This document shows positions 2,376-17,312 of a stretch of DNA of 17,312 bases, piece by piece (position 1 is the first letter of the stretch; every line of letters begins with the position of its first letter). Below the pieces are notes generated by a model. That model was not told where the DNA came from. It worked only from the letters and a program-made list of their open reading frames with translations, and searched no databases. Origin of the DNA: a bacterium. Lineage in GTDB: Bacteria > JALSQH01. The stretch covers positions 1 to 17,312 of the forward strand of contig JALSQH010000059.1 in the NCBI GenBank assembly GCA_026985515.1, in the 5' to 3' direction. A program made the translations under genes and the position numbers.

Positions 2376-3164
2376 CTACTGGGAGAGCTGATCAAGAAGT
2401 CTGTTGATCACCTCAATATTTTTCTCAATCTTGGGAGAATATCTGTTGTCAGGGTAATCTTCATTAAGTCGCAGAAGAATCTCCTTGGCTTTTTCGAGGA
2501 ATTCCCTCTTTCTCGCAGGGTCACTTTCGCTCCTTCCCTGATAAACAAGGAGATTTGCCCTGTTCCACTCGGGAAGAATCACCCTCTGTTCAATTTTCCT
2601 CAGGTAACTCCCTGCTTCATCAACCCTGACTCCCTCCTCAAGGCACTTCTGAAATTTTGAATAGGCCTCTTTCCACTGCTGGTTATTAAAATCCTCAACT
2701 GCACTGGCAAAATCACACTCCTTTTCTTCTGATACCGAAGGAGAAATTGATGTTTGCATCGTGGCTGTAGAAGGGTAATTCTGAAACTCCTGCGATTCGG
2801 GGTGATTCCGCTGAAGTGGAGGCTTCACCTCAGAGGGAGAGGTAACCCTACCAGCTATGTAATTCACACTATTGAGTAGAGCTGTGAGTTTCTGAGAATA
2901 AATTTTGTAGAGGAAAAGGACATATCTGGGTTCTCTTCCTTCCTTTATGGCATTTTTTAAAGTTATGTTGAGTCTTATAGCCATATCAAGATCAGACTGC
3001 GGCACCTTATTCTGTAGTGATTCCAGGACTCTTCTCTCCTCATCAAGTTCATAGATGTAATTTTCTCTTTCCCTGTAGGGAAGGGTCGTTTTAAAAAGGG
3101 TGGCACAGGATGAAAAGAGGAATAGCAGAAGAATTGAAAGAAAGGTTATTTTTCGGGCAACCAT
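2376..3164 (-). CDS. TPR-like envelope lipoprotein of unknown function
   Basis: The protein has a lipoprotein signal: positive residues, a hydrophobic stretch at 7-17, then FSSC with Cys20 as the probable lipid anchor. Residues 30-105 are charged and helical. Residues 107-150 form a Pro/Ser/Gln-rich linker. Residues 151-262 look like helical repeats of TPR type (DFNNQQWKEAYSKFQKCLEE at 158-177, then EKAKEILLRLNEDYP at 224-238). The start is supported by GAGGAGAG about nine bases upstream. Its first 19 bases overlap the end of the penicillin-binding protein gene, so translation of the two is probably coupled. A TPR lipoprotein made next to a class A PBP recalls LpoA/LpoP-type activators, but I see no sequence identity to those and the role is inference. 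It is the last gene of the minus-strand unit. Confidence 0.8.
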   Translation of the reverse strand: MVARKITFLSILLLFLFSSCATLFKTTLPYRERENYIYELDEERRVLESLQNKVPQSDLDMAIRLNITLKNAIKEGREPRYVLFLYKIYSQKLTALLNSVNYIAGRVTSPSEVKPPLQRNHPESQEFQNYPSTATMQTSISPSVSEEKECDFASAVEDFNNQQWKEAYSKFQKCLEEGVRVDEAGSYLRKIEQRVILPEWNRANLLVYQGRSESDPARKREFLEKAKEILLRLNEDYPDNRYSPKIEKNIEVINRLLDQLSQ

Positions 3165-6100
3165 AATTTTTCTCTCCTCATTGTGGTCTCAATTCTCTTT
3201 CTCACATCCACCTCTTCAGGGTCAGTCACAGGAGCAAGGGGTATCCCTGTAACTTCATCTACTTCATACCACTGGAAGTCGTCAGGTACTTCAAGGGAAA
3301 CATAATTTCCTCTTATCTCATCAAAACTAAGTATATCCTGGAAGTGAGATTTATCAACAATTTCTCTCATAACCTCTGCCACCACGGGAAGTGCTCCATT
3401 GGATCCAAATACCCTGTAACCATGCTTTCTCATAGGTTTGTTATCATCATACCCGACATACCCCGCAACCACAAATGCTCCATCTGGAGAAAGTGTAACA
3501 CCATCCCTCGTTATCACCGGAACAATTCCCACAAAGGATGAATTGGTAAAATTGTTTGTTGTTCCAGTCTTACCCATTACAGGGAGATAATATTTCCTTC
3601 CATTGTAATCAATCACGAACTTTTCCCTCATGCTTCTGGCAGTTCCTATTTGAAAAACCTTTTCAAGTACTGAATCAACCATTGAAATGTATCGTCTCGG
3701 GATGAGTTGCTGTATTTCAATTTCACTGCGGTAAATGGTTTCCCCATTGTAATCAATATGGTCTATTAAAGTAAGCCCATAGGGCTGATCAGAGGTATAA
3801 TACCTGAAACCCTGAGAGAGAGTTGTGTATACCAGACTCAACTCCGGCAGAGTTACTCCTGAGCTTCCCAGGGGGAGGGATGGAACCTTTTTCAGAGGAG
3901 AAACAACTCCCATCATGTTCATCAACTTTTCATACACTGAGAGAGCCAGATATGTTTTAAAATCCCTGAGATGAACTATCAATTGAGGAGAATAAAAAGA
4001 GTAGGCGGAAAGAAGAGAGTTGAATTTTTCCTCTGCATCATTCTCAAGCTCGTTCAACAGTTGAAGAGGAATCACTCCCTCAACCCAGTAATTTTCGAGT
4101 TCAGACGGTGAGAGCGAGTAAATTCTTTCACCCCTGCAGGGAGCAAAGTTTTCTGTACATATGGAGATTTTTCCATTATCGTCAGTAATCTTCAGTGCCT
4201 CATAACTACCTTCCTTTAACAACTTCTCAATTCTGTCTCTCTTTCTTATCAACCAGTCATAATCATAAAGGGTAAATCTCAACCTGAGCTGTTCCTCCTC
4301 ACTTCTTCTCTTTTTTCTCAATAATTGTTTCCTTATCCTTGCAATCACGGGACTGCATCTCATATTTCTCAAAGCGTAAATTTCATCAGGAGAAAGATTG
4401 AAACCCTGGTCCCTTATGATTTCACCGGCACTTTCCTCCACTATGGAGCAGAAGAGAGTCTTCTTCGTAAAAGTTATTCCCTCCTTACCCAGAAATTTGA
4501 GATAATCTCTGTCTATCCTCTCTGGAAGAACTCCACTCCATCTGGCAAGTTTTAAGATATCCTGTGGTGGGGAGTAGTTAAAGAGATTGAATAGAAGATT
4601 AATAGTTGCAAGATTTTCAGAGTAGGCACCTGCCCACGCTATTGAAACAATCTTTGAATGAGGAGGATGATCAGGTCTGGGGAAATAAGGCTGACCCTGA
4701 TAGATATACATCTCCCTCTCATCGGGAATGGGATCGGTGTTTAACTGGCCCAGAAGAAAGTACTCCAGATAAAGTGGAATTTTAAAAATAGATCCCGGCT
4801 GCCTCCTCGCCACCCACGCCCTGTTGTAGTAGATGTTGGTAAAACCTCCAACCATAGCCTTTATTCTTCCAGCCTGTGTAACGAAAACTGCACCCTCCAG
4901 TCGGGGATATTTCTCCACACAGAATTTCTCACCATCGTAACTTATCAGAACTGGATCACCTTTTTTAAAATTTTTCATGAAATATCTTACCGCCACTGTG
5001 GGAGAAACCCATCTTCCCCTTCTGTAAAAGTAATCTGCCACAGGAACCTGAGGACATTCAAGAAGGTTGACTTTTATATTCTGTGGAGATGGTGCTCTTA
5101 TCCTGACAGTTAAAGCTTTCCTGCCCTTTCTGACAATACTTCCATAGTAAAAACCCTTTTCCAGAGAGGGATAAACCTCAAGAGATATACCTGAAGGTGG
5201 CGAATATCCCCTGAGAAGTGTGTCAAGGAGTGAGAGCCTCTTTCTCAGAGCGAATAGAGATTCCCTTTCAAGGTCATAATCCAGCGTTGTATAGATTTTA
5301 AGTCCTGCCGTGTATATATTTTCAATGCCGGCACTTTCCCAGATCTCCTGAAACTCAGGACTTTCGAGGATATCACTGATAACATTTATCATCACATTGG
5401 GCCTTGTGGAAAGAATTCCCATGTGAAACTTCAATTTTTCCCTCAATGCGTGAAGATAGGTTTTCCTGTCAATATATCCATTTCTGTACATCCTGTAGAG
5501 AACATAATGTACCCTCTTTCTTATTCTCTCCCTTATCCTCTTCTCCTGCTGAATATTCTTTGCAGAAAAAATGTCATACATTGATGGCGCCTTCACGGAC
5601 CCTGCAATAAAGGCACACTCTTTAAGAGTGAGATCAGAGACATCCTTGTTGAAAAAATACCTGGCAGCCACCCCTATACCTCTCCCCTGACCCTTCACAT
5701 AGAACTGATTCAGGTAGAATTCCAGTATCTCATCCTTGGTGTAGTAATGTTCAAGACGAAGCGCATTTATCAGCTCCTTTATTTTTTCATAAACTGTTCT
5801 TCCACGCCTCCCAAAGAGGTTTTTGGCAGTTTGCTGAGTAATTGTGCTTCCCCCCTCAACAATTCTCCCCTTAATGAGATCCACAATCAGTGCCCTCAGC
5901 ATTGAGATGGGATTGAATCCTGGATGGTGGTAGAACCACCTGTCTTCAGCAGAAATCACCGCTTCCCTGCAGTAAAGGGGAATATTTTTCAGGGGCACAT
6001 ATATTCTGTAACTTTTTCCAAAGAAACTTCCCACCTCATGCACACCATCACTGTAGTAAACCACAGAATGCCTCGAGAGAATCTTCATGATATTTTCTCG

Positions 6101-6271
6101 CTTAATCTGATCCCCGGGAAACCAGACAACGAAAAAGTAATAGAGAAAAGTCAGAATCCCTGCAGTTACACCAACAGTAAGAAAAAAATAAAATAAAAAT
6201 CTGATCCGGCGACGTTGATTCTTACTGCTCTTCTTTCTTTTTGTTACTCTTCTCTTTCCTTTTTTACCCAC
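3146..6271 (-). CDS. class A (bifunctional) penicillin-binding protein, 1A-like, unusually long
   Basis: This enzyme polymerises lipid II into glycan strands and cross-links stem peptides on the outer face of the inner membrane. After a very basic N-terminus (1-24) there is one membrane span at about 25-49. The GT51 glycosyltransferase follows: EDRWFYHHPG at 109-118 with the catalytic Glu, and GGSTITQQTAKN at 140-151. A linker with an OB-like region comes at about 320-460. The transpeptidase has SIFK at 494-497 (nucleophile Ser494), SEN at 551-553 and KTGTT at 901-905. SxN to KTG spans about 350 residues against about 190 in E. coli PBP1A, so about 600-790 is an insert with four of the protein's eight cysteines (608, 639, 705, 712) and a highly charged helical stretch at 644-689. 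The total of 1041 aa compares with about 720-850 usual. The start is GTG, 28 bases inside the preceding gene, with no clear Shine-Dalgarno, suggesting coupled translation. Confidence 0.95.
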   Translation of the reverse strand: MGKKGKRRVTKRKKSSKNQRRRIRFLFYFFLTVGVTAGILTFLYYFFVVWFPGDQIKRENIMKILSRHSVVYYSDGVHEVGSFFGKSYRIYVPLKNIPLYCREAVISAEDRWFYHHPGFNPISMLRALIVDLIKGRIVEGGSTITQQTAKNLFGRRGRTVYEKIKELINALRLEHYYTKDEILEFYLNQFYVKGQGRGIGVAARYFFNKDVSDLTLKECAFIAGSVKAPSMYDIFSAKNIQQEKRIRERIRKRVHYVLYRMYRNGYIDRKTYLHALREKLKFHMGILSTRPNVMINVISDILESPEFQEIWESAGIENIYTAGLKIYTTLDYDLERESLFALRKRLSLLDTLLRGYSPPSGISLEVYPSLEKGFYYGSIVRKGRKALTVRIRAPSPQNIKVNLLECPQVPVADYFYRRGRWVSPTVAVRYFMKNFKKGDPVLISYDGEKFCVEKYPRLEGAVFVTQAGRIKAMVGGFTNIYYNRAWVARRQPGSIFKIPLYLEYFLLGQLNTDPIPDEREMYIYQGQPYFPRPDHPPHSKIVSIAWAGAYSENLATINLLFNLFNYSPPQDILKLARWSGVLPERIDRDYLKFLGKEGITFTKKTLFCSIVEESAGEIIRDQGFNLSPDEIYALRNMRCSPVIARIRKQLLRKKRRSEEEQLRLRFTLYDYDWLIRKRDRIEKLLKEGSYEALKITDDNGKISICTENFAPCRGERIYSLSPSELENYWVEGVIPLQLLNELENDAEEKFNSLLSAYSFYSPQLIVHLRDFKTYLALSVYEKLMNMMGVVSPLKKVPSLPLGSSGVTLPELSLVYTTLSQGFRYYTSDQPYGLTLIDHIDYNGETIYRSEIEIQQLIPRRYISMVDSVLEKVFQIGTARSMREKFVIDYNGRKYYLPVMGKTGTTNNFTNSSFVGIVPVITRDGVTLSPDGAFVVAGYVGYDDNKPMRKHGYRVFGSNGALPVVAEVMREIVDKSHFQDILSFDEIRGNYVSLEVPDDFQWYEVDEVTGIPLAPVTDPEEVDVRKRIETTMRREKLWLPEK

Positions 6272-6675
6272 AGGTACAGATATGTTGCAATTACTGCCAG
6301 GGGAAAATCAGTTAAGAAAATCACTATGTAGGAAAAATACTTCTCCGTGAAAATGAAAAAAAGGACCCCAAAAATTGAACTTGTATATTTGGAAATGATT
6401 AAAACAGGAAGCAAGCAAAGATTTTTTCTGGGATTCAAATAAATCGCAATGGAGATGAAAGATATCATAACCATCATGCTGTTGGTAAGATCAAGGTAGA
6501 ATCTCTCCTGAAATGGAGGCGATGGTGGAAGACCAAGAAGTGACCCAAGATAGTTCATAATATCATACAGCTGTGGAGACGCAAAGAGGAAAATCAGATC
6601 AGTTACAATGAAAGCAATAGCGTATAAGAGCATAACATATCTAAGAACATTTTCTCTTTTCGTCCACTCATTCAT
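6244..6675 (-). CDS. small four-helix integral membrane protein, unknown function
   Basis: The 143-residue protein is hydrophobic, with four probable membrane helices at about 11-31, 64-80, 86-108 and 113-136 and a basic/acidic cytoplasmic tail ending KKEREE. Between helices 1 and 2 is a Pro-rich loop (GLPPSPPFQERFYLD, 48-62). I do not recognise a family. The ATG follows the TAG of the GH31 gene with no spacer, and the last 28 bases overlap the start of the penicillin-binding protein, so it sits inside one transcription unit and probably relies on translational coupling. Position suggests an accessory role in envelope metabolism, but nothing in the sequence shows a catalytic motif. Confidence 0.8.
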   Translation of the reverse strand: MNEWTKRENVLRYVMLLYAIAFIVTDLIFLFASPQLYDIMNYLGSLLGLPPSPPFQERFYLDLTNSMMVMISFISIAIYLNPRKNLCLLPVLIISKYTSSIFGVLFFIFTEKYFSYIVIFLTDFPLAVIATYLYLWVKKEREE

Positions 6676-9051
6676 CTATCTGACCTCCATAAGAATGAAT
6701 TTATGATACCCTGTCAGGTTCATAATTTCCAGTTTATTTCTCTCAATTTCAGATGAACCAGATATTTCCTCAAAACCTGAGGCGGGAGAAATCATTCTGT
6801 CATTGATGATGTCACATTTTCTGAGTATCAGGCCAGCCGGCATATTTATTTCAACTTCAATATTGTTCCCACTTTTTTCCACATTCACATCCACGCCGTT
6901 GTAGAATCTTCTGTGAAAACTACCAAATGTAAAGATCTGAAGATCAAGTTGATTCTCTACATCCTTCAGATCAACATACTTTGAAGATTCAACAAAGGTC
7001 TGCGGTACTTTATCAAGGTAGAGAATCGCTCCCTTTCTTGCAAAATGGGGAATGGTATCAAGAGGTGCATAGTAAGATCTGACAATCTGTTTGCCATGAA
7101 AAATTACTCCCCTGTTGAGATCATACCAGATTCCCTCCGGAAGATAAACATCAACCCTTTCAGTGTCATCCACCACAGGTGCCACAAGAATTGTGTCACC
7201 AAACATGTATTCAAAGGGGAACTTCCAGGTCTCCTCATCATACCTGTACTCCATTGAAATACTTTTAATCATTGGAATCCCCTCTGTTGCCTCTATTGCC
7301 GCGGTGTAAATGTAGGGGAACATCTTCACGTAAAGTCTGGCATATTTCCTGAAAATTTTCACCAGTTCCTCATCATAAACTGCCCACGGTCTTCTATCTC
7401 CATTTCCCCCATACTGAAATATGGGTGAGAAGGCACCAAACTCAATCCACCTTGCCATAACATTCTTATCTGGCGTCCCTCCCCTGTAACCACCAATGTC
7501 TGATCCAAAAAATGGAAAACCTACGATATTGAGATTTATGGCAGCCATAACTGCAGCCTTCAATCCTCCCACATTACCGGGAGGGGTACCATCGGGGGCA
7601 CTTTTATCCCAGTTAGCTGTGCTCCAGGAAAAATCGTTATCCAGGTCTCCGGGCCAGATAGCCGTCACATTTCTCTGATCCCCTATCGTTCCAGTCCTCG
7701 CAATGGTGAAACAGAGATCTCCGTGAATCTTCCTGCACGCATTCATCGCATGGTAGTGATACAGAAACTTGTAACAGGCATGCATCTGTGTTTCATCTTT
7801 GCCATTGTGAAAATGGTACATAAAAGCATGGGCCTTCTGTCCCTGGCTCACGCTAAGATATGGCACGACATCTTCACCATAATCAAGTTTAAAACCCATC
7901 CCCCCCATTCTGAGAGGTTTTGAGACCAAACTCTCCCACCACAGAGCTGCTTCGGGATATGTAAAATCAATTATTGCACCATTTCCCCTGCCCCAGGGAA
8001 GTATTAAAGGATTGCCACTATTATCTGTAACAAAATAGCCATGCTCCTCTGCATAGGCGAAATATGGGAGAGTTGCCGGATCATGAGAGGGATCGTTTAT
8101 ATGTTCCGTTATCCAGTTGAATGTATATACACCTTTTTCTCTCATTCTCTCTATCATACCCCACGGATCAGGGAACTGTGAGGGATTGTAATCATAGGTG
8201 TTGTGACCTGTCTCCCAGGGCGCATCGATCCAGACCGCTGAAAGGGGCACATCAAGGGCTCTTAAATGGTCAATATCATCCATTATTTCATTTTCACTGT
8301 AATACTCATCCCTCCACCACAACACCCCAAAGCTCCAGACAGGGGGGAGAGACGGTTTGCCAGTATCTCTCATATACTCCCTGATAATTTCATAGGGATC
8401 ATCAGATAAGTAGATCCTTCCATGAATATGATTGGTGTAAAATTTGAACCTTATCTCATCCTGCCGGGTTTTACCAACATCCCACTCGCCTTCAACACAG
8501 GTACTGACAAGCAATCCGTAACCCCTGGAAGAAATGTAGAATGGAATGGGAAGATGTACCTCGTTCAATCCAGATTCACTCCAGGGTGCAAGTTCCAGCT
8601 GCATGGGTCTTCTGAAACCAACATTATCAATGGAATCAAAATTCTCACCAAAGCCCCATATATGCTCTCCCCCGTTTAATGCTACGGTACCTGTAAGATA
8701 TTTCTTCTCCACATCAAGATTTTCGAAAGATGACATTGAAACATCAAATGAGTACCCGGACCCCTCCTTCCTGATTTCCACATTAACCGGGATATCAATA
8801 CCTCCTGCCTCGCATACATACTCTATCTTTGCGCCATTATCTCTGACTGAATAAGAAGGAGCTTTCTTCAACTTACCCTCCTCAACGCAGAAACCGGGTT
8901 TCTTAAAGTCAACAATGATTTTTTCACCCTTCATAATTCCAAACAAAACATCACCTGAAAAAAACAATCTGAACCTGTTCGCCACACTGGATTTATTTGA
9001 ACAGGAGGTGATCAGCAGGACTACAATAATCATCCATTTTTTCAATTTCAT
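6676..9051 (-). CDS. glycoside hydrolase family 31 lipoprotein (alpha-glucosidase/xylosidase-type)
   Basis: This is an exported retaining alpha-glycosidase; the sugar it releases cannot be read from the sequence. A lipoprotein signal (ITSC, Cys17 modified) places it in the envelope. The N-terminal beta-sandwich (about 25-230) contains GFGENFDSID at 133-142. The barrel starts near WSFGVLWWRDEYY at 239-251. FKLDYGED at 387-394 carries the nucleophile Asp390 and WPGD at 466-469 the acid/base Asp469. FFGSDIGGY at 514-522 and PIFQYGGNGDRRPW at 543-556 are further GH31 blocks. Beta domains occupy about 615-791. The length of 791 aa is normal. GGAAGG six bases upstream and an extended -10 promoter support the start and make this the first gene of the minus-strand unit. 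Grouping with a peptidoglycan synthase suggests an envelope or external glycan substrate (inference). Confidence 0.93.
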   Translation of the reverse strand: MKLKKWMIIVVLLITSCSNKSSVANRFRLFFSGDVLFGIMKGEKIIVDFKKPGFCVEEGKLKKAPSYSVRDNGAKIEYVCEAGGIDIPVNVEIRKEGSGYSFDVSMSSFENLDVEKKYLTGTVALNGGEHIWGFGENFDSIDNVGFRRPMQLELAPWSESGLNEVHLPIPFYISSRGYGLLVSTCVEGEWDVGKTRQDEIRFKFYTNHIHGRIYLSDDPYEIIREYMRDTGKPSLPPVWSFGVLWWRDEYYSENEIMDDIDHLRALDVPLSAVWIDAPWETGHNTYDYNPSQFPDPWGMIERMREKGVYTFNWITEHINDPSHDPATLPYFAYAEEHGYFVTDNSGNPLILPWGRGNGAIIDFTYPEAALWWESLVSKPLRMGGMGFKLDYGEDVVPYLSVSQGQKAHAFMYHFHNGKDETQMHACYKFLYHYHAMNACRKIHGDLCFTIARTGTIGDQRNVTAIWPGDLDNDFSWSTANWDKSAPDGTPPGNVGGLKAAVMAAINLNIVGFPFFGSDIGGYRGGTPDKNVMARWIEFGAFSPIFQYGGNGDRRPWAVYDEELVKIFRKYARLYVKMFPYIYTAAIEATEGIPMIKSISMEYRYDEETWKFPFEYMFGDTILVAPVVDDTERVDVYLPEGIWYDLNRGVIFHGKQIVRSYYAPLDTIPHFARKGAILYLDKVPQTFVESSKYVDLKDVENQLDLQIFTFGSFHRRFYNGVDVNVEKSGNNIEVEINMPAGLILRKCDIINDRMISPASGFEEISGSSEIERNKLEIMNLTGYHKFILMEVR

Positions 9052-9271: not shown

Positions 9272-11104
9272 TTGAATAACAGCGCATTTAAAGGTATTAT
9301 TTTATGGACCGCAATAATCATCTTTTTCATTCTCCTTTACAATCTATTCTATTCGCCTGAGAAGAGGAAAATTGAACTTACTTACTCTGAGTTCCTGGAA
9401 AAGGTAAGCTCAGAGGAAGTAAAATCTGTCCTTATAAAAGGCTCAGAAATAGAAGGATTGATGAAGGATGGTACCCAGTTTCACACCTATGCCCCCAATG
9501 ATCCCCAGATGATAGATTTCCTAAGAAAGTACCACGTTGACATCGCTGCAAAACCCGCGCCGGAGGAACCTCTCTGGAAATCGATACTGATCGGCTGGGC
9601 GCCAATGATACTCTTGATCCTGGTGTGGATCTTCTTCATGCGGCAGATGCAGGCAGGGAGTGGGAAAGCCTTCTCCTTTGGTAAAAGCAGAGCCAAAATG
9701 GTAAATGCCAATGAAAGCAAAGTTACCTTCAAGGATGTTGCAGGTATTGATGAGGCAAAGGAGGAACTGGAAGAGATCATTGAATTTCTAAAGAACCCCA
9801 AAAAATTCACAAAACTTGGTGGAAAAATACCAAAGGGTGTACTTCTCATTGGTCCTCCCGGTACCGGCAAAACTCTCCTTGCAAAGGCAATTGCAGGGGA
9901 GGCTGGAGTACCCTTCTTTTCCATAAGTGGAAGTGACTTTGTAGAGATGTTTGTTGGAGTTGGTGCATCAAGGGTGAGGGATCTGTTTGATCAGGCAAAG
10001 AGGAATGCTCCATCTATCATCTTTATCGACGAGATAGACGCAGTCGGAAGACAGAGAGGTACGGGGCTGGGTGGAGGACATGATGAGAGAGAGCAGACAC
10101 TGAATCAGCTGCTGGTTGAGATGGATGGTTTCGATGCAAATGAGGAAGTTATAGTCATTGCTGCCACAAACAGACCAGACGTACTTGATCCAGCTTTACT
10201 GAGACCGGGAAGATTTGACAGAAGAATTGTTATTCCACGTCCCGATGTCAAGGGAAGACTTGAAATTCTGAAAGTACATACAAGGAACAAACCACTTGCT
10301 GAGGATGTGAATCTCGAAATTCTGGCAAAATCAACACCTGGATTCTCAGGTGCAGATCTTGCAAATCTGGTAAACGAAGCAGCCCTCATTGCAGCAAGGA
10401 AGAACAAAAACAAAATTGAAATGGAGGATTTTGAGGAAGCCAAGGATAAGGTACTGATGGGTGTTGAGAGAAAAAGCATGGTGATAAGTGAGGAGGAGAA
10501 GAAGAACACAGCCTATCATGAGTCAGGGCACGCTCTTGTTGCAAAACTCACACCGGGAGCTGATCCCGTTCACAAGGTAACCATCATACCCAGAGGAATG
10601 GCTCTGGGTGTAACCCAGCAACTCCCCATTGATGACAGGTATACCTACACAAAAGAATATCTGATGGCAAACATAGCTGTACTGATGGGAGGAAGAGCTG
10701 CTGAAGAAATAGTTCTTGGCCACATAACCACCGGCGCAGGAAACGATATAGATAGAGCCACAGAAATAGCAAGGAAGATGGTGTGTGAATGGGGGATGAG
10801 CGAAAGACTGGGTCCCCTCTCCTTCGGTCACGAAGATGAAGCTGTTTTCCTGGGAAGGGATCTTGTAACCAGAGCCAAATATTCTGAAGAAACAGCAAGA
10901 TTAATTGATGAAGAAGTCAAGAGAATCGTTGTCACAGCATACAACTATGCAAAGAATCTTTTAAAGGCAAACATTCAGATTCTGCATGAAATGGCAAAAG
11001 TTCTGCTGGAGAAGGAGATAATAACCTCTGAAGAAATTGATGAAATAATATCCAGATTCAACGTGGTAAAAGGTAATATTGAGGAACTGGTGGGGACCAT
11101 TTAA
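9272..11104 (+). CDS. ftsH: ATP-dependent zinc metalloprotease FtsH
   Basis: FtsH is the membrane-anchored AAA+ protease that extracts and degrades misfolded membrane proteins and selected regulators; in E. coli it also sets LPS synthesis by degrading LpxC. Two membrane helices (about 7-26 and 104-123) flank a short periplasmic domain. The AAA module has Walker A GPPGTGKT at 194-201, the pore motif FVG at 227-229, Walker B FIDEID at 251-256 and the second region of homology at about 299-318 with the arginine fingers. The protease has HESGH at 416-420 (His416, Glu417, His420) and Asp492 in TTGAGNDID as the third zinc ligand. The length of 610 aa is normal. It starts with TTG behind a strong ribosome site. 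It leads the plus-strand unit, and its TAA is followed immediately by the folP ATG. Confidence 0.98.
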
Positions 11105-12325
11105 ATGTACACCATTCACTTCCTCACCCTTGAAGAGGCAGAAGAGTTTCTCAAGGAAAGAATAAATGTTTTCCCCGGGGTCGTTCCCCTTTTTCGGGAT
11201 AAAATTGATCTCAGAGTAATATACATTCCATCTGTAAATTATGTTCAGGGAAATATAATCAAACAGGAAGCTCTTGCATCAGATATTGATGCTGCAATAC
11301 CACAGGGAATGATTGACGCAACGAGAGAGAGTGGTCCGGTACTCATAATAGGAGACCTTCACCGTATAAAGAGATTGATCGCCAAATTGAAACTGCAGCC
11401 CTACGGTTTGAAGAAGATTGCAGAAAGCTTAGAGGAACTTATTGAAAAAGAACCTTTAAAATTCAGAATCCCCGCGAAGGGGATCGAATTTGATTGCCGC
11501 AATCCAGTTATAATGGGAATTCTCAATGTAACCCCCGATTCCTTTTCAGATGGAGGGAAATATAACACACTGGAGAGAGCTCTCAGCCGGGTGGAAGAAA
11601 TGATTAGAGACGGTGCCGACATAATTGATGTGGGAGGGGAATCAACCAGACCGGGTGCCTCACCTGTTGATGTTAACGAGGAATTGAAAAGAACAATACC
11701 CATCATTGAAGAGATAAGGAAAAGATTTGAGATTCCCATCTCCATCGACACCTCAAAACCTGAAGTGGCAAAAAGGGCACTGGAGGCAGGAGCTGACATA
11801 ATAAATGATGTAACGGCAGCCAGAGAGCCAGAAATGGAAAAACTGATCATAGAGACAAAATCTCCCGTTGTTCTGATGCACATGCAGGGAGAACCACGCA
11901 CCATGCAGAGGAATCCCCATTACGAAGATGTAATAGGAGAAATATATGGATTTCTCAAAGAGAGAGTTAACTTCTTCGTAAGAAATGGTTTAAACTATGA
12001 CCAGATTGCCATAGATCCCGGAATTGGTTTTGGGAAAACCCTTCAGCATAACCTCACGATTTTCAATCACCTGGATTCTTTTTTATCAATAGGTTCACCG
12101 GTTTTAATTGGTCCATCAAGAAAATCCTTTATTGGCATGATTCTTGATGTACCCGTTGAAGAAAGGGAGGAAGGTACAGTTGCCTCGGTAATATGGTCAT
12201 ACATGAAGGGTGCGTGCATTTTCAGAGTTCATGATGTTAAAGAAAATAAGCGGGCACTTGAAGTGGCAAAAGCAATAAAATTTTCTTTTTCTACAGGGAA
12301 GAGGGAAGTTGGTCTTCACCCTTAA
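11105..12325 (+). CDS. folP: dihydropteroate synthase with N-terminal extension
   Basis: The enzyme joins p-aminobenzoate to the pterin pyrophosphate in folate synthesis, in the cytoplasm. The TIM-barrel domain starts near residue 133 and shows MGILNVTPDSFSDGG at 137-151, DIIDVGGESTRPGA at 172-185, SIDTSKPEVAKRALEAGADI at 213-232, VVLMHMQG at 255-262, IDPGIGFGKT at 303-312, GPSRKSFIG at 336-344 and RVHDV at 374-378, covering pterin and pABA loops. Residues 1-130 are extra to the usual 270-280 aa enzyme; such long forms are known in several anaerobic and thermophilic lineages, and the extension has no motif I recognise. The ATG abuts the ftsH stop with no gap, and the end overlaps cdaA by 17 bases, consistent with one operon. 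Confidence 0.96.
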   Translation: MYTIHFLTLEEAEEFLKERINVFPGVVPLFRDKIDLRVIYIPSVNYVQGNIIKQEALASDIDAAIPQGMIDATRESGPVLIIGDLHRIKRLIAKLKLQPYGLKKIAESLEELIEKEPLKFRIPAKGIEFDCRNPVIMGILNVTPDSFSDGGKYNTLERALSRVEEMIRDGADIIDVGGESTRPGASPVDVNEELKRTIPIIEEIRKRFEIPISIDTSKPEVAKRALEAGADIINDVTAAREPEMEKLIIETKSPVVLMHMQGEPRTMQRNPHYEDVIGEIYGFLKERVNFFVRNGLNYDQIAIDPGIGFGKTLQHNLTIFNHLDSFLSIGSPVLIGPSRKSFIGMILDVPVEEREEGTVASVIWSYMKGACIFRVHDVKENKRALEVAKAIKFSFSTGKREVGLHP

Positions 12326-13064
12326 AGAAATTATTGTCAACATCCTGGACATTATCCTTGTAGCAATCATAATTTACGAGACTATCATTCTGATAAAAGG
12401 CACCAGAACCGTTCAGATGCTCCTTGGAATACTCCTTATAGCCCTTCTTTACTTAGTGGCTCAATATCTTGGGATGCCCACAATTACCTGGCTCTTAGAT
12501 GGCTTCATAAAATATTTCGTTCTCATTCTGATTATTCTCTTCCAGAACGATATCAGAAGAGCCCTCACAGAAGTGGGAAGAAACCCCTTTTTCACCGGCG
12601 TGAGCAGAAGCGAAGAAAAACATGTCTTAGATGAAATTGTAAAAGCCTCCTTCCAGATGGCAAGCAGAAGAATAGGTGCACTCATAGTGATAGAAAGAAG
12701 GGTAAACATTAAGGACATCGTGGAAGATGGTATCACCCTTGATGCAAAGGTATCAAGTGAATTGCTTATGACGATCTTTTTTCCCAGGACACCACTTCAT
12801 GATGGTGCAGTTATTATAAAAGAGGGAAGAATTCTACAGGCAAAGGGGATCCTGCCCCTATCCACAAATCCTGAAATTCCCAGATTCTTTGGTACGAGGC
12901 ACAGAGCAGCAATGGGAATTACAGAACAATCTGACGCCATTGCCATAGTTGTATCTGAAGAGGAGGGAATCGTTTCCTTAGTGGTGGAGGGAAAAATCAC
13001 GAGAGGGCTCCAGCAGAGTGATCTCTTTAACCAGTTAGCGGAACTGTTAGAGGTCAAGGTATGA
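12309..13064 (+). CDS. cdaA: diadenylate cyclase CdaA (membrane-bound DAC domain)
   Basis: CdaA condenses two ATP into the second messenger c-di-AMP, which in well-studied bacteria controls potassium and osmolyte uptake and cell-wall homeostasis. Three membrane segments lie at about 8-29, 36-54 and 62-79. The DAC domain follows with LDAKVSSELL at 144-153, the catalytic DGA motif at 165-167 and RHR at 197-199 (GTRHRAAMGITEQSDA). The length of 251 aa is slightly shorter than B. subtilis CdaA at its C-terminus. The start is TTG, with GAGGGAAG directly upstream, 17 bases inside folP. The stop and the cdaR ATG overlap as ATGA. Presence with cdaR and glmM reproduces the core of the c-di-AMP/GlmM cluster of Firmicutes. 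Confidence 0.96.
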   Translation: MVFTLKEIIVNILDIILVAIIIYETIILIKGTRTVQMLLGILLIALLYLVAQYLGMPTITWLLDGFIKYFVLILIILFQNDIRRALTEVGRNPFFTGVSRSEEKHVLDEIVKASFQMASRRIGALIVIERRVNIKDIVEDGITLDAKVSSELLMTIFFPRTPLHDGAVIIKEGRILQAKGILPLSTNPEIPRFFGTRHRAAMGITEQSDAIAIVVSEEEGIVSLVVEGKITRGLQQSDLFNQLAELLEVKV

Positions 13065-13981
13065 AAACACTGATAGAAAAGTTGAAAAATCTCTTTACCC
13101 ACAACTGGCAGCTGAAACTCCTTTCCCTTTTTCTCGCCATCCTACTCTGGCTCTTTGCAGTTTTTGAAAAGCCTGTTGATACGACAATTGTGGTTCCCCT
13201 GACATATCAGAATATCCCAAAGCGTATGATCCTTGTTGGCAATCCTCCCGACAGAATTTTAGTGGAAATAAAGGGTCCAAGAGCGCTTATCACCAGTATT
13301 AAAAAGTCCGGAAGTTACAGAATAAATCTCGGTAATCTGAGACCAGGTACAACCGCCATAAAGATAGATCCCTCTAAAATCCACCTTCCCCCCGGGATTG
13401 AAATAACAAAGATCACACCCTCAATAATTGAAATTACAATAGACAGGATTGCAAGCAGGGTTCTCCCTGTGAGGGTGAGAACAAAAGGTTTGCTTCCCCC
13501 CGGTCTGGAATTGAAAAAAATTACAGTTGAACCATCAAAAATTAAACTGACAGGGGCAGCCTCCCAGTTAAACAGCCTGAGAGCAATCTATACCGAATTC
13601 ATTGACCTCTCTGATATCAAAACATCCCAGACAATTGATGTGGAACTGGATTTTGGAAATTTAACACTTGTGGAAGTCACAACGAGAATTGTTCATGTAA
13701 GAATAGAGGTAATGGCAAGAAAGATTCTAAAAGAGTTCAACAACGTTCCCATCCATGTGTTTGGAGGTAAAAATTTTGTGTTAAAAGATAAAACTGCACA
13801 TCTTAAACTTTACGGTCCGCAGATGATACTTGGTAAGCTCACCCCTTCAGATATAAAAGTTTATATTAACATAGCAGGCTTCAAAAAGGGAAGAAGAAGA
13901 GCAAGGGTGGAGGTTGATCTGCCTCCACAAACAAGACTCGTTGAGATTTCACCACTCTTTGCAGAGGTGATTATCCATTGA
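13061..13981 (+). CDS. cdaR: CdaA regulatory partner CdaR (YbbR-domain protein)
   Basis: CdaR is a membrane-anchored extracytoplasmic protein that binds CdaA and adjusts its cyclase activity in Gram-positive bacteria. An N-terminal stretch of basic and polar residues precedes one membrane helix at about 17-34. Then come three YbbR repeats at about 38-128, 132-216 and 220-304, each beta-rich and typically holding a pattern like LVEIKGPRALITSI (67-80), IKLTGAASQLNSL (161-173) and LKLYGPQMILGKL (248-260). The length of 306 aa is shorter than the four-repeat Bacillus protein. It overlaps both neighbours by four bases (ATGA, TTGA). Its role here is inferred from family and position; no regulatory residues can be read. 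Confidence 0.9.
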   Translation: MKTLIEKLKNLFTHNWQLKLLSLFLAILLWLFAVFEKPVDTTIVVPLTYQNIPKRMILVGNPPDRILVEIKGPRALITSIKKSGSYRINLGNLRPGTTAIKIDPSKIHLPPGIEITKITPSIIEITIDRIASRVLPVRVRTKGLLPPGLELKKITVEPSKIKLTGAASQLNSLRAIYTEFIDLSDIKTSQTIDVELDFGNLTLVEVTTRIVHVRIEVMARKILKEFNNVPIHVFGGKNFVLKDKTAHLKLYGPQMILGKLTPSDIKVYINIAGFKKGRRRARVEVDLPPQTRLVEISPLFAEVIIH

Positions 13982-16008
13982 AAAGATGGACAATCTATCT
14001 CCTCTATTCACTCATCTTTCTAATCTTGCCCCTTTTTCACTGGGGCCTTGAATATATTTACACAAAATTTCTGGTCTGGTCCCTGCTTTTTTCCTTCATT
14101 ATTCTTCTATCTGATGAATTACCACTTCCCGGTAAGAAAAGTGTGCTGTTCCTCCTTCCCTTTATCATTTCTCTGATTTCCCTGATCCTTTTCTCTGATC
14201 ACCCGCTGTGGGGCTATCATCTCACGATGCTATTTCTCCTCTTCCTCTTCTTTCCTCTATTCCTTTTCCACCACTTCAAAAAAATCCACAGAGGAAACCT
14301 TCTTCTCCTCATCCTTCTCACAATTCCCCTTCTCACAATTGAGGTAGTTGGTATTCTTCAGTTCTTCAAAATTCTCCCCCTCCCCATAGACAGATATGGA
14401 AAACCAGATCCGGGTAGCCTTGTGGGATTATCCAACTTCGCCTCACACTATATCGTCATCATCCTCCCTGCAGTAATTTTTCTGATGAGCAGAGAAATCA
14501 AGAATAAAATTCTTTCCATCTCCGTGATCTTTATCACCCTTTCCCTATCACTTTACTATCTTGCAATTGCGGCAAACAGGGCATCTTTTGTGGCACTTCT
14601 TGTTATTCTCCTTCTGTGGGTAGCAATGCAAATCAGGAAACAGTGGAGGGAGATTCTCATAACTTCAGCAGCCGCACTTTTAATTCTATTTGCCACAGGT
14701 ACCCTCAATCGTGCCTACAGAAGATTTATTACAACCTTTAATTTCTCTGACCCCGCCATAGGATATCGTCTTCATCTCTGGGAAGCTTCTCTTAAAGCAT
14801 TACCTCACAATCTTTCAGGAATGGGTATGGGAGATTTCAGATTTGAAATCTGGAAATACATTGATTACTACTTGAAAAAAATGACAGTTACAGGTGACAT
14901 AATAATTCAGCACGCACATAACGAATACATTGAGGCAACTCTTGAGGGGAGCCTGCTTCTTCTATTTTCCATACTTCTGATTCTCTTCCTTTCCATTGCT
15001 CGGTCCAGGAGTGAAGAAAGATTTACAATTTACCCCATAGCATCTGCATCCACCGTTTCCTTCTTTTCCTTTCCCATGCACATGCCACTATCACTTTTCG
15101 TAACAGCGATTTTCGTCACAGGGAAAGAATACTTTCACAACCTTTTCATATGGAAGAAAAATTTTCCCTACAGGATTCTTCTTTTCCTCCTGTTCTTCAT
15201 CCACTCACTATTTCTCTTCAACCTTTCAACTGCTGAATACCATTCAAGGAGGGGCATCAACTTCATAATAAAAAAGGACTACAATAGCTGTGAGAAAGAA
15301 TTCACAGAAGCAATTTCACACTTCAGAGAAGAACCTGACTACTTCTACAACAGAGCAGTTTGCAGGGAAAACCTCAAACTCACAGGTGGAGCAATAAGGG
15401 ATCTCAAAGAAGCCATTAAAATTTCCCCCTACCAGCCACAACCATATAAATTTCTGGGTGTTCTCTATCTGAAGGAGAACAACAAACAGGAAGGAATCAG
15501 ATGGTTGAAAAAGTATCTGAACCTTACTGGTGAACCAATAGAAGTCCAGCCCATCCACTTCGTTATTGCAGCATCCCTCGACATTGGAGACGTTGCTACG
15601 GCAGGTAAATATCTGAAAATTGCTGAGAGGAGATTCCCTTCAAACAAAATCATACTTCTTGATAAACTTGCTTACCTACTGGCTACAAAGAAGTACAGAA
15701 AAGCTGAAAAACTATCTGGAGCAATAGAAAAGATGTTTGCTTCCCTTCCGCCTGAATATTACATGATGAAAGCCCAACTCCTTATTCACCTCAACAGATC
15801 ACCACTTCCGTCACTGAAAATCCTCATCCAGAAAAAACCAGATCCTCAGCTCATCTTAACATATCTCCTTGAGATAAAAAGAGAGAAGGGTGAAAAAAGG
15901 GCTCTGGAAGAGATGGAGAATATCTTGAAAAAAAACCCTTCTCTGCTAAATTATCTTCTGCGGAACAGGGAAATGAGAGAGATTCTCAGGAGAGGAGAAA
16001 AGAGATGA
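13978..16008 (+). CDS. O-antigen ligase/polymerase (Wzy_C-type) membrane protein with C-terminal TPR domain
   Basis: Proteins of this family transfer or polymerise lipid-linked glycans on the periplasmic face. About ten or more hydrophobic helices fill residues 4-415. The Wzy_C-type signature is visible as GLSNFASH at 150-157, NRAS at 200-203, then a periplasmic loop with GYRLHLWEASLKALP at 262-276, GMGMGDF at 281-287 and HAHNEYIEATLEGS at 312-325 (the H-N-E motif and conserved Arg264 are the likely functional residues). After a last helix (about 398-416), residues 419-670 are TPR-like helical repeats, clearest at 422-450, 454-484 and 488-515. The TTG start has GAGGTGAT upstream and overlaps the cdaR stop as TTGA; the stop overlaps glmM as ATGA. 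The exact substrate (O-antigen, exopolysaccharide or protein glycan) is unknown. Its place between cdaR and glmM is unusual. Confidence 0.85.
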   Translation: MKRWTIYLLYSLIFLILPLFHWGLEYIYTKFLVWSLLFSFIILLSDELPLPGKKSVLFLLPFIISLISLILFSDHPLWGYHLTMLFLLFLFFPLFLFHHFKKIHRGNLLLLILLTIPLLTIEVVGILQFFKILPLPIDRYGKPDPGSLVGLSNFASHYIVIILPAVIFLMSREIKNKILSISVIFITLSLSLYYLAIAANRASFVALLVILLLWVAMQIRKQWREILITSAAALLILFATGTLNRAYRRFITTFNFSDPAIGYRLHLWEASLKALPHNLSGMGMGDFRFEIWKYIDYYLKKMTVTGDIIIQHAHNEYIEATLEGSLLLLFSILLILFLSIARSRSEERFTIYPIASASTVSFFSFPMHMPLSLFVTAIFVTGKEYFHNLFIWKKNFPYRILLFLLFFIHSLFLFNLSTAEYHSRRGINFIIKKDYNSCEKEFTEAISHFREEPDYFYNRAVCRENLKLTGGAIRDLKEAIKISPYQPQPYKFLGVLYLKENNKQEGIRWLKKYLNLTGEPIEVQPIHFVIAASLDIGDVATAGKYLKIAERRFPSNKIILLDKLAYLLATKKYRKAEKLSGAIEKMFASLPPEYYMMKAQLLIHLNRSPLPSLKILIQKKPDPQLILTYLLEIKREKGEKRALEEMENILKKNPSLLNYLLRNREMREILRRGEKR

Positions 16009-17312
16009 AAAAACTCTTTGGTACAGACGGTATAAGAGGTGAGGCAAACAGATACCCCATAATTCCTGAAATAGCACTGAAAATTGGAATGGCAGCAGCC
16101 ATTCAGTTCAGAAACGGGAACAGACGCCATAAGTTCATAATAGGAAAAGACACAAGAATCTCAGGATACATGCTTGAAACAGCAATGACCTCCGGAATCA
16201 TCTCCATGGGAGGAGATGTGTTACTTACAGGTCCCTTTCCCACCCCTGGCATTGCCTTTCTCACGGGAAGCATGAGGGCAGATGCTGGAATCGTTATATC
16301 TGCCTCACACAATCCTTATTACGATAACGGTATAAAATTTTTCGACAGAAACGGCTACAAACTTCCCGACGAAATTGAAAATAGAATTGAACAACTTTTA
16401 GAAAACCCTGAAGAAATGGATAGAATGAGGGTACCATCCTCCAGACTGGGAAAAGCACGCAGGATAAGTGACGCCAGGGGAAGATACATCGTCTTCCTCA
16501 AGTCCACATTTCCCATTGACCAGACTTTAGAGGGAATGAAAATAGCCCTGGACTGCGCCAATGGTGCAACCTACAGAATCGCCCCGGAGGTTTTTTCTGA
16601 GTTAGGTGCCGATGTTATCCCGGTGGGGGTAAATCCTGATGGATTCAACATAAATGATAATTGCGGTGCCCTTTACCCTGAAAACATAGCAAAAATTGTC
16701 AGGGAATCAGGTGCAGATGCAGGTATAGCATTCGATGGAGATGGTGACAGGGTAATTATGGTGGATGAAAAGGGAGAAATTGTGGATGGTGATGACATTC
16801 TTGCCATGCTGGCATCAAGACTGCTTGAGGAGGATTCTCTTCCCCACAGAACCATTGTGGGAACCGTCATGACAAATGGTGCCCTGGAACAGCTGATGAA
16901 AGAGAAGGGTGGGAAATTGATAAGAACCCCTGTTGGAGATAGATATGTTGCGGAAAAAATGAGAGAAGGGGGATTTATTCTTGGTGGAGAAAATTCGGGA
17001 CACATTATTTACGCAAAGTATTCCACTACAGGAGATGGTATTCTCACTGCTCTGCAGGTCCTTGCACTGATGACAACAAGGGGCAAACCTCTCTCGGAGC
17101 TGAGAAAAATTATAGAAAAGTACCCTCAGCTGATGAAAAGCTTTCGCTACAGGGAGAAGAAGGAATTGTCTTCAATAGATCAATTGAATAAGCTGAAAGA
17201 GGAAGCTATGAAAGATCTTGGTGAGAGCGGTAGAATTCTTATCAGATACTCTGGGACCGAACCAAAGGTGAGGATAATGGTTGAAGCGGATGATGAGGAA
17301 AAGGCGAGAGTC
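16005..17312 (+). CDS. glmM: phosphoglucosamine mutase (partial, C-terminus beyond window)
   Basis: GlmM converts glucosamine-6-phosphate to glucosamine-1-phosphate, the step that feeds UDP-GlcNAc for peptidoglycan and LPS; in Firmicutes it also binds and inhibits CdaA. The reading frame is open to the window end (436 codons), close to the usual 445-455, so only a few residues are missing. Motifs are KLFGTDGIRGE at 3-13, the phosphoserine loop ISASHNP at 98-104 with Ser101, the metal loop FDGDGDRV at 243-250 (Asp244, Asp246, Asp248), the sugar-binding GGENSGH and the phosphate-binding RYSGTEPKVR near the end. The ATG sits in an ATGA overlap with the preceding gene and has AGAGGAG upstream. 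It completes the cdaA-cdaR-glmM set. Confidence 0.97.
   Translation, partial: MKKLFGTDGIRGEANRYPIIPEIALKIGMAAAIQFRNGNRRHKFIIGKDTRISGYMLETAMTSGIISMGGDVLLTGPFPTPGIAFLTGSMRADAGIVISASHNPYYDNGIKFFDRNGYKLPDEIENRIEQLLENPEEMDRMRVPSSRLGKARRISDARGRYIVFLKSTFPIDQTLEGMKIALDCANGATYRIAPEVFSELGADVIPVGVNPDGFNINDNCGALYPENIAKIVRESGADAGIAFDGDGDRVIMVDEKGEIVDGDDILAMLASRLLEEDSLPHRTIVGTVMTNGALEQLMKEKGGKLIRTPVGDRYVAEKMREGGFILGGENSGHIIYAKYSTTGDGILTALQVLALMTTRGKPLSELRKIIEKYPQLMKSFRYREKKELSSIDQLNKLKEEAMKDLGESGRILIRYSGTEPKVRIMVEADDEEKARV

Follow-up and report, generated by a model that had tools for sequence, protein, structure and literature searches.

What does a gene for a membrane protein of the O-antigen ligase type, extended by a TPR tail, do between cdaR and glmM, inside an operon for c-di-AMP and amino-sugar synthesis? 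The window analyzed here, 17,312 nucleotides in full, makes up all of contig C59 in the genome of a little-known, deep-branching bacterium (G000; 2.36 Mb, 97.6% complete), and the protein in question is called X below. We lean slightly towards the reading that X is an active envelope-glycan ligase of the WaaL/PglL superfamily (Wzy_C, GT-C fold), co-expressed with the c-di-AMP and amino-sugar genes and perhaps touching CdaR. In the literature searched, we found no paper joining a diadenylate cyclase with an O-antigen ligase and none discussing this gene neighbourhood.

Gene Order and Host

On the plus strand of the window, six genes form a single run, ftsH-folP-cdaA-cdaR-X-glmM. The run is headed by ftsH (9272..11104; Pfam Peptidase_M41, AAA and FtsH_ext), and folP, encoding dihydropteroate synthase (11105..12325; Pfam Pterin_bind, 292 bits), lies directly upstream of cdaA. 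The membrane-bound diadenylate cyclase encoded by cdaA (12309..13064) matches the TIGR00159 equivalog at 248 bits (cut-off 188.8), is composed of Pfam CdaA_N and DAC domains, and contains both the DGA and RHR motifs; the host genome has no DAC gene besides cdaA. The product of cdaR (13061..13981) holds three YbbR stretches and is expected to have one N-terminal membrane helix, with the YbbR repeats on the outer side of the membrane. X (13978..16008) begins with TTG and encodes 676 aa with Wzy_C and TPR matches, and glmM (16005..17312, with the contig end inside the gene) encodes a phosphoglucosamine mutase that scores 588 bits against the TIGR01455 equivalog (cut-off 447.6). Genuine CdaA, CdaR and GlmM are thus encoded in one operon, as in the cdaA-cdaR-glmM regulatory module. 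Four-base overlaps join cdaA to cdaR (13061-13064), cdaR to X (13978-13981) and X to glmM (16005-16008), and AGGTGA- and AGGAGA-like ribosome-binding sequences lie closely 5' of X and glmM. The order cdaA-cdaR-X-glmM, the gene identities, the span of 12309-17312 and the four-base overlaps on both sides of X, as given in the first-pass annotation, were all reproduced, and because the genes overlap, X is very probably co-expressed with the other genes of the operon.

The same annotation had viewed the cluster through its classical Firmicutes counterpart, a frame that does not extend to the host. The Firmicutes cdaA-cdaR-glmM operon (PMC8573169) has the same three genes in the same order, on a single strand and with overlapping ends, whereas the locus described here differs in the WaaL-like, TPR-bearing gene between cdaR and glmM, in a GlmM with Arg at the Asp151 contact, and in its lipid-A diderm host. 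The presence of LpxC in the host genome indicates a lipid-A-bearing diderm bacterium and not a Firmicute. Only one of the compared genomes, G001 (JALTID01, bin S016_metabat2_scaf2bin.175), shares the family of the host, and the rest are related to it at the domain level only. Bins with names of this kind are reported from deep-sea hydrothermal deposits (PMC9793634).

Elsewhere in the window, in the neighbourhood of the contig's other envelope genes, anmK (anhydro-MurNAc kinase) and an M20 peptidase gene (79-1254 and 1251-2375) overlap by four bases. A 1041-aa transglycosylase protein is encoded on the minus strand (3146-6271), with a transpeptidase domain match of 17 bits, below the threshold of 22, and is possibly a divergent PBP1C-like protein.

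Fold and Putative Active Site of X

X matches Pfam Wzy_C at 52.9 bits, with a curated cut-off of 31.7, and TPR is also matched. An AlphaFold model of X, built from 28 locus-derived sequences, has a mean pLDDT of 89.1 and a pTM of 0.87. Its top match in VIA-align 2 is WaaL 7TPG (7TPG_B; Z 23.4, 357 residues, rmsd 4.5), which covers model residues 1-388; plain Foldseek matches were dominated by TPR proteins. The predicted layout is a WaaL fold (1-388), an extra membrane helix (396-416) and a TPR superhelix (about 417-672). Arg201, Arg264 and His314 are kept in X and are at least 90% conserved among 28 homologue sequences, and alignment together with motifs assigns them to R215, R288 and H338, the catalytic residues of WaaL (PMC3643930; roles explained in PMC10920833). 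With its Wzy_C match, WaaL fold and conserved R/R/H set, X is most probably an active enzyme that ligates or transfers glycans. X shares with the WaaL O-antigen ligase (PDB 7TPG; Pfam PF04932; CAZy GT121) the fold of residues 1-388, the R/R/H set and a large His-bearing loop on the outer face; unlike WaaL, to which it is only 13% identical, it continues into one further membrane helix and ~260 residues of TPR superhelix, and its gene lies within a cdaA operon.

By analogy, X in the inner membrane would take a glycan off undecaprenyl diphosphate at the outer face and hand it to an acceptor, either lipid A-core or protein, with the two arginines holding the diphosphate and the histidine activating the acceptor. 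The extra last helix would bring the TPR superhelix to the periplasmic side, with the acceptor or a partner protein as its most likely ligand. Lipid A is an available candidate acceptor, as LpxC is present, and X need not be the O-antigen ligase, because the host genome holds four further Wzy_C genes. The operon would then divide the work: GlmM may supply the amino sugar, X may attach the finished glycan, and CdaA/CdaR may set c-di-AMP and so turgor.

A protein acceptor would make X a PglL-like protein O-oligosaccharyltransferase whose TPR presents protein substrates. This is compatible with the reading we prefer, being the same enzyme type, and we hold it as a tentative possibility. Both the Wzy_C domain and the three catalytic residues are common to PglL and WaaL (PMC3643930), a TPR superhelix has the shape typical of peptide binding, and two glycines kept in the X family, G281 and G283, may match the conserved PglL pair described in the same study, as mapped by eye. 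However, no PglL-specific Pfam family was matched by X even at E 1, X shows no evident counterpart of the PglL residues H400/E404, no pilin-like substrate gene adjoins X, and the TPR tail is an addition relative to PglL.

Predicted Topology and Reach of the TPR Tail

The best count of membrane spans in the X model is 12 in the WaaL core plus 1 before the TPR. WaaL itself has 12 membrane helices, with the catalytic loop outside (PMC10920833). In the model, the WaaL-like part ends at ~388, at the cytoplasmic end of the fold, and is followed by a strand (390-393) and by helix 396-416, which runs straight into the TPR. The strand appears to lie alongside strand 47-50 of the TM2-TM3 loop on the cytoplasmic side, a pairing read from secondary structure. 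The C-terminus of WaaL is cytoplasmic. Under the topology assigned to X by its WaaL fold match, one extra helix is predicted to place the TPR tail outside the membrane, where it could reach the YbbR domains of CdaR, the only domains of the proposed partners that are predicted to share this compartment. The TPR tail had been proposed in the first-pass annotation as a docking site. Docking is feasible for CdaR, whereas the predicted topology makes it unlikely for GlmM and the DAC domain, which both lie on the opposite side of the membrane. If X makes a physical contact, it should thus involve CdaR rather than GlmM or the cyclase domain.

Recurrence of the Insertion and of Glycosyltransferases beside cdaA

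The survey covered ~100 cdaA loci, drawn from genomes that, with few exceptions, belong to different families and share no rank below domain with the host. In 36 loci, gene calls placed all three of cdaA, cdaR and glmM on the same strand, with cdaR and glmM abutting in most, and of these 36 clusters the window and G049 alone had a same-strand gene between cdaR and glmM. Both inserts code for a protein in which TPR repeats come after ~12 membrane spans, and in G049 the whole order is retained from ftsH onwards (ftsH-folP-cdaA-cdaR-X'-glmM). G049 is a phylum-level orphan, kin to the host at the domain level and represented by one 84%-complete genome, with no second member of its phylum in the collection. 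In addition, G001, a second genus, carries cdaR-X-glmM on a 4.1 kb contig, with an X that is 48% identical and with cdaA past the contig end. The insertion is thus not confined to one genome, and its recurrence in the unrelated G049 lineage indicates that the placement is real and old. We therefore regard it as a real, old, conserved and uncommon variant of the cdaA operon.

Several other candidates were rejected. In L049 and L105, the gene that separates cdaR from glmM is unrelated and lies on the opposite strand, and L044 has only a doubtful distant glmM match. Apparent CdaR-GlmM fusions from long ORFs in L034 and L048 are read-through of the GlmM frame over cdaR, and a long ORF in L094 is GlmM sequence repeated across an N gap.

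The family to which X belongs is broader than the cdaA operon. A profile of X, its G001 counterpart and X' found Wzy_C+TPR proteins in 27 of 386 genomes at 1e-12, and about 25 of the 28 homologues in these 386 genomes are encoded away from cdaA, which opposes a general tie between X homologues and cdaA. Within the fetched flanks of the homologue loci, neither cdaA nor cdaR was found besides those of G000, G001 and G049. Moreover, two of the four further Wzy_C genes in the host genome (746 and 560 aa) encode TPR-bearing relatives of X, beside a TetR regulator and a Roadblock protein.

Other membrane glycosyltransferases also lie beside cdaA or cdaR. In G018 and two congeners (L114/L169, L132 and L133), the gene directly after cdaA-cdaR encodes a Wzy_C protein of 517 aa that lacks TPR, and a TMEM260-like (PF11028) glycosyltransferase gene lies directly 3' of cdaA on the same strand in G102 (L065), G061 (L082), G130 (L106) and G069 (L113). 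The TMEM260-like proteins of G069, G102 and G130 have TPR hits and that of G061 has none; no cdaR was found next to cdaA in these four loci. Like X, these are multi-spanning membrane glycosyltransferases, mostly with a C-terminal TPR, encoded next to cdaA, and they differ from it in glycosyltransferase family and in having no adjacent cdaR. Among ~890 genes of the surveyed regions, all strong TMEM260-like and confident Wzy_C matches directly follow cdaA or cdaR, a count to be read with search profiles that were partly built from these proteins and with four TMEM260 lineages that may be mutually related. Such recurrence argues against pure chance. In L119 (G008; 4239-7926, minus strand), cdaA is followed by genes for two multi-spanning membrane proteins without Pfam hits, which by eye are flippase-like and YfhO-like and are possibly another glycan-related pair beside cdaA.

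These distributions bear on whether X is simply an ordinary envelope glycosyltransferase that settled in an envelope operon and is tied to c-di-AMP by shared transcription only, a view that we consider rather unlikely. It accounts for the many Wzy_C+TPR homologues, two of them in the host genome itself, that stand elsewhere among unrelated neighbours, and all genes of the cluster have broad envelope roles. It sits less well with the finding that both same-strand inserts among the 36 clusters are WaaL-like proteins with TPR, in lineages related at the domain level only, and that the ~890 genes yielded no other Wzy_C-like gene but the one directly after cdaR in G018.

The G049 Copy and a Possible Non-catalytic Role

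X' (L030:6603-8447) has 614 aa, with weak TPR hits and no Wzy_C match in Pfam. A profile of the other Wzy_C+TPR proteins matches X' across the catalytic region and the TPR at 4e-17 (an E-value for a single sequence), and the best pairwise match of X' among 25 homologues is the X of G001 (30.5 bits, the next being 19.5), which is also its sole non-self match below 1e-6 in a search of 130 genomes. Similarly, an X-only profile scores 31.8 bits against X', and the profiles of other subgroups score at most 15.7. In the tree of X, X' forms a very long branch that groups weakly with X (ultrafast bootstrap 53). The CdaR proteins of the window and G049 are reciprocal best matches within the survey (183 bits and 34% identity over 298 residues, against 110 bits for the next lineage to the window), whereas their CdaA and GlmM proteins are not each other's best match, and a concatenated CdaA and GlmM tree leaves the sisterhood of G049 and G000 undecided. 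The cdaR-X pair of the window and that of G049 are thus likely to have a common origin, by descent or by transfer.

X', whose model has a pLDDT of 70, retains the slot, the size, the membrane part and the TPR, yet it lacks the catalytic His, with Glu or Pro in its place, and the first Arg. Judged by these residues, X' is possibly a pseudoenzyme, and catalysis is not what both lineages conserve in this slot; the losses come from a single genome and, if relatives were to show them too, would point to a role in the operon other than catalysis. X might then belong to the complex that makes c-di-AMP, as a structural or regulatory subunit whose periplasmic TPR binds CdaR at its YbbR domains and signals the state of the envelope or its glycans to CdaA, catalysis being secondary and losable. 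The reciprocal best match of the two CdaR proteins also speaks for such a subunit, as do the membrane glycosyltransferases after cdaA or cdaR in five further lineages, three with TPR tails. However, the X copies of the host's own family retain every catalytic residue, the likeness of CdaR may merely mirror common descent of the cdaR-X pair, and G049 is one incomplete genome with no relatives to confirm the residue loss, so that we judge this role unlikely.

GlmM, CdaR and the Control of the Cyclase

In B. subtilis, GlmM D151/E154/D195 contact CdaA R126 (PMC8573169). The GlmM of the window has Arg, Asp and Glu at the corresponding positions, so that the acidic contact set is not reproduced, and the same R/D/E pattern occurs in 17 of 38 surveyed GlmMs, including that of G049. 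The Arg/Asp/Glu pattern is that of the E. coli and P. aeruginosa GlmMs, neither of which binds the S. aureus cyclase (PMC8573169). With Asp151 replaced by Arg, control of this CdaA by GlmM should not be assumed. On the CdaA side, the R126 position (B. subtilis numbering) appears to be kept in the window (SRRIGAL). In the first-pass annotation, c-di-AMP output, amino-sugar supply and surface glycan assembly had been proposed to form one linked module; given the probable co-expression, we regard such a module as a reasonable inference.

c-di-AMP is best known from turgor and cell-wall control in Gram-positive bacteria. It is an improbable, if broader, idea that glycosyltransferases with a periplasmic TPR (WaaL-like after cdaR, TMEM260-like after cdaA) are recurrent partners of CdaA-type cyclases in deep-branching bacteria, touching CdaR or CdaA on the outer side and thereby letting c-di-AMP synthesis follow the state of surface-glycan assembly, with the G049 copy as a catalytically dead sensor or scaffold. 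The mode in which CdaR regulates CdaA remains unclear (PMC8573169). A predicted extracytoplasmic TPR protein that is made with CdaR offers a concrete candidate partner for what CdaR senses outside, and if X does bind CdaR, c-di-AMP would be linked to surface-glycan attachment in lipid-A-bearing bacteria.
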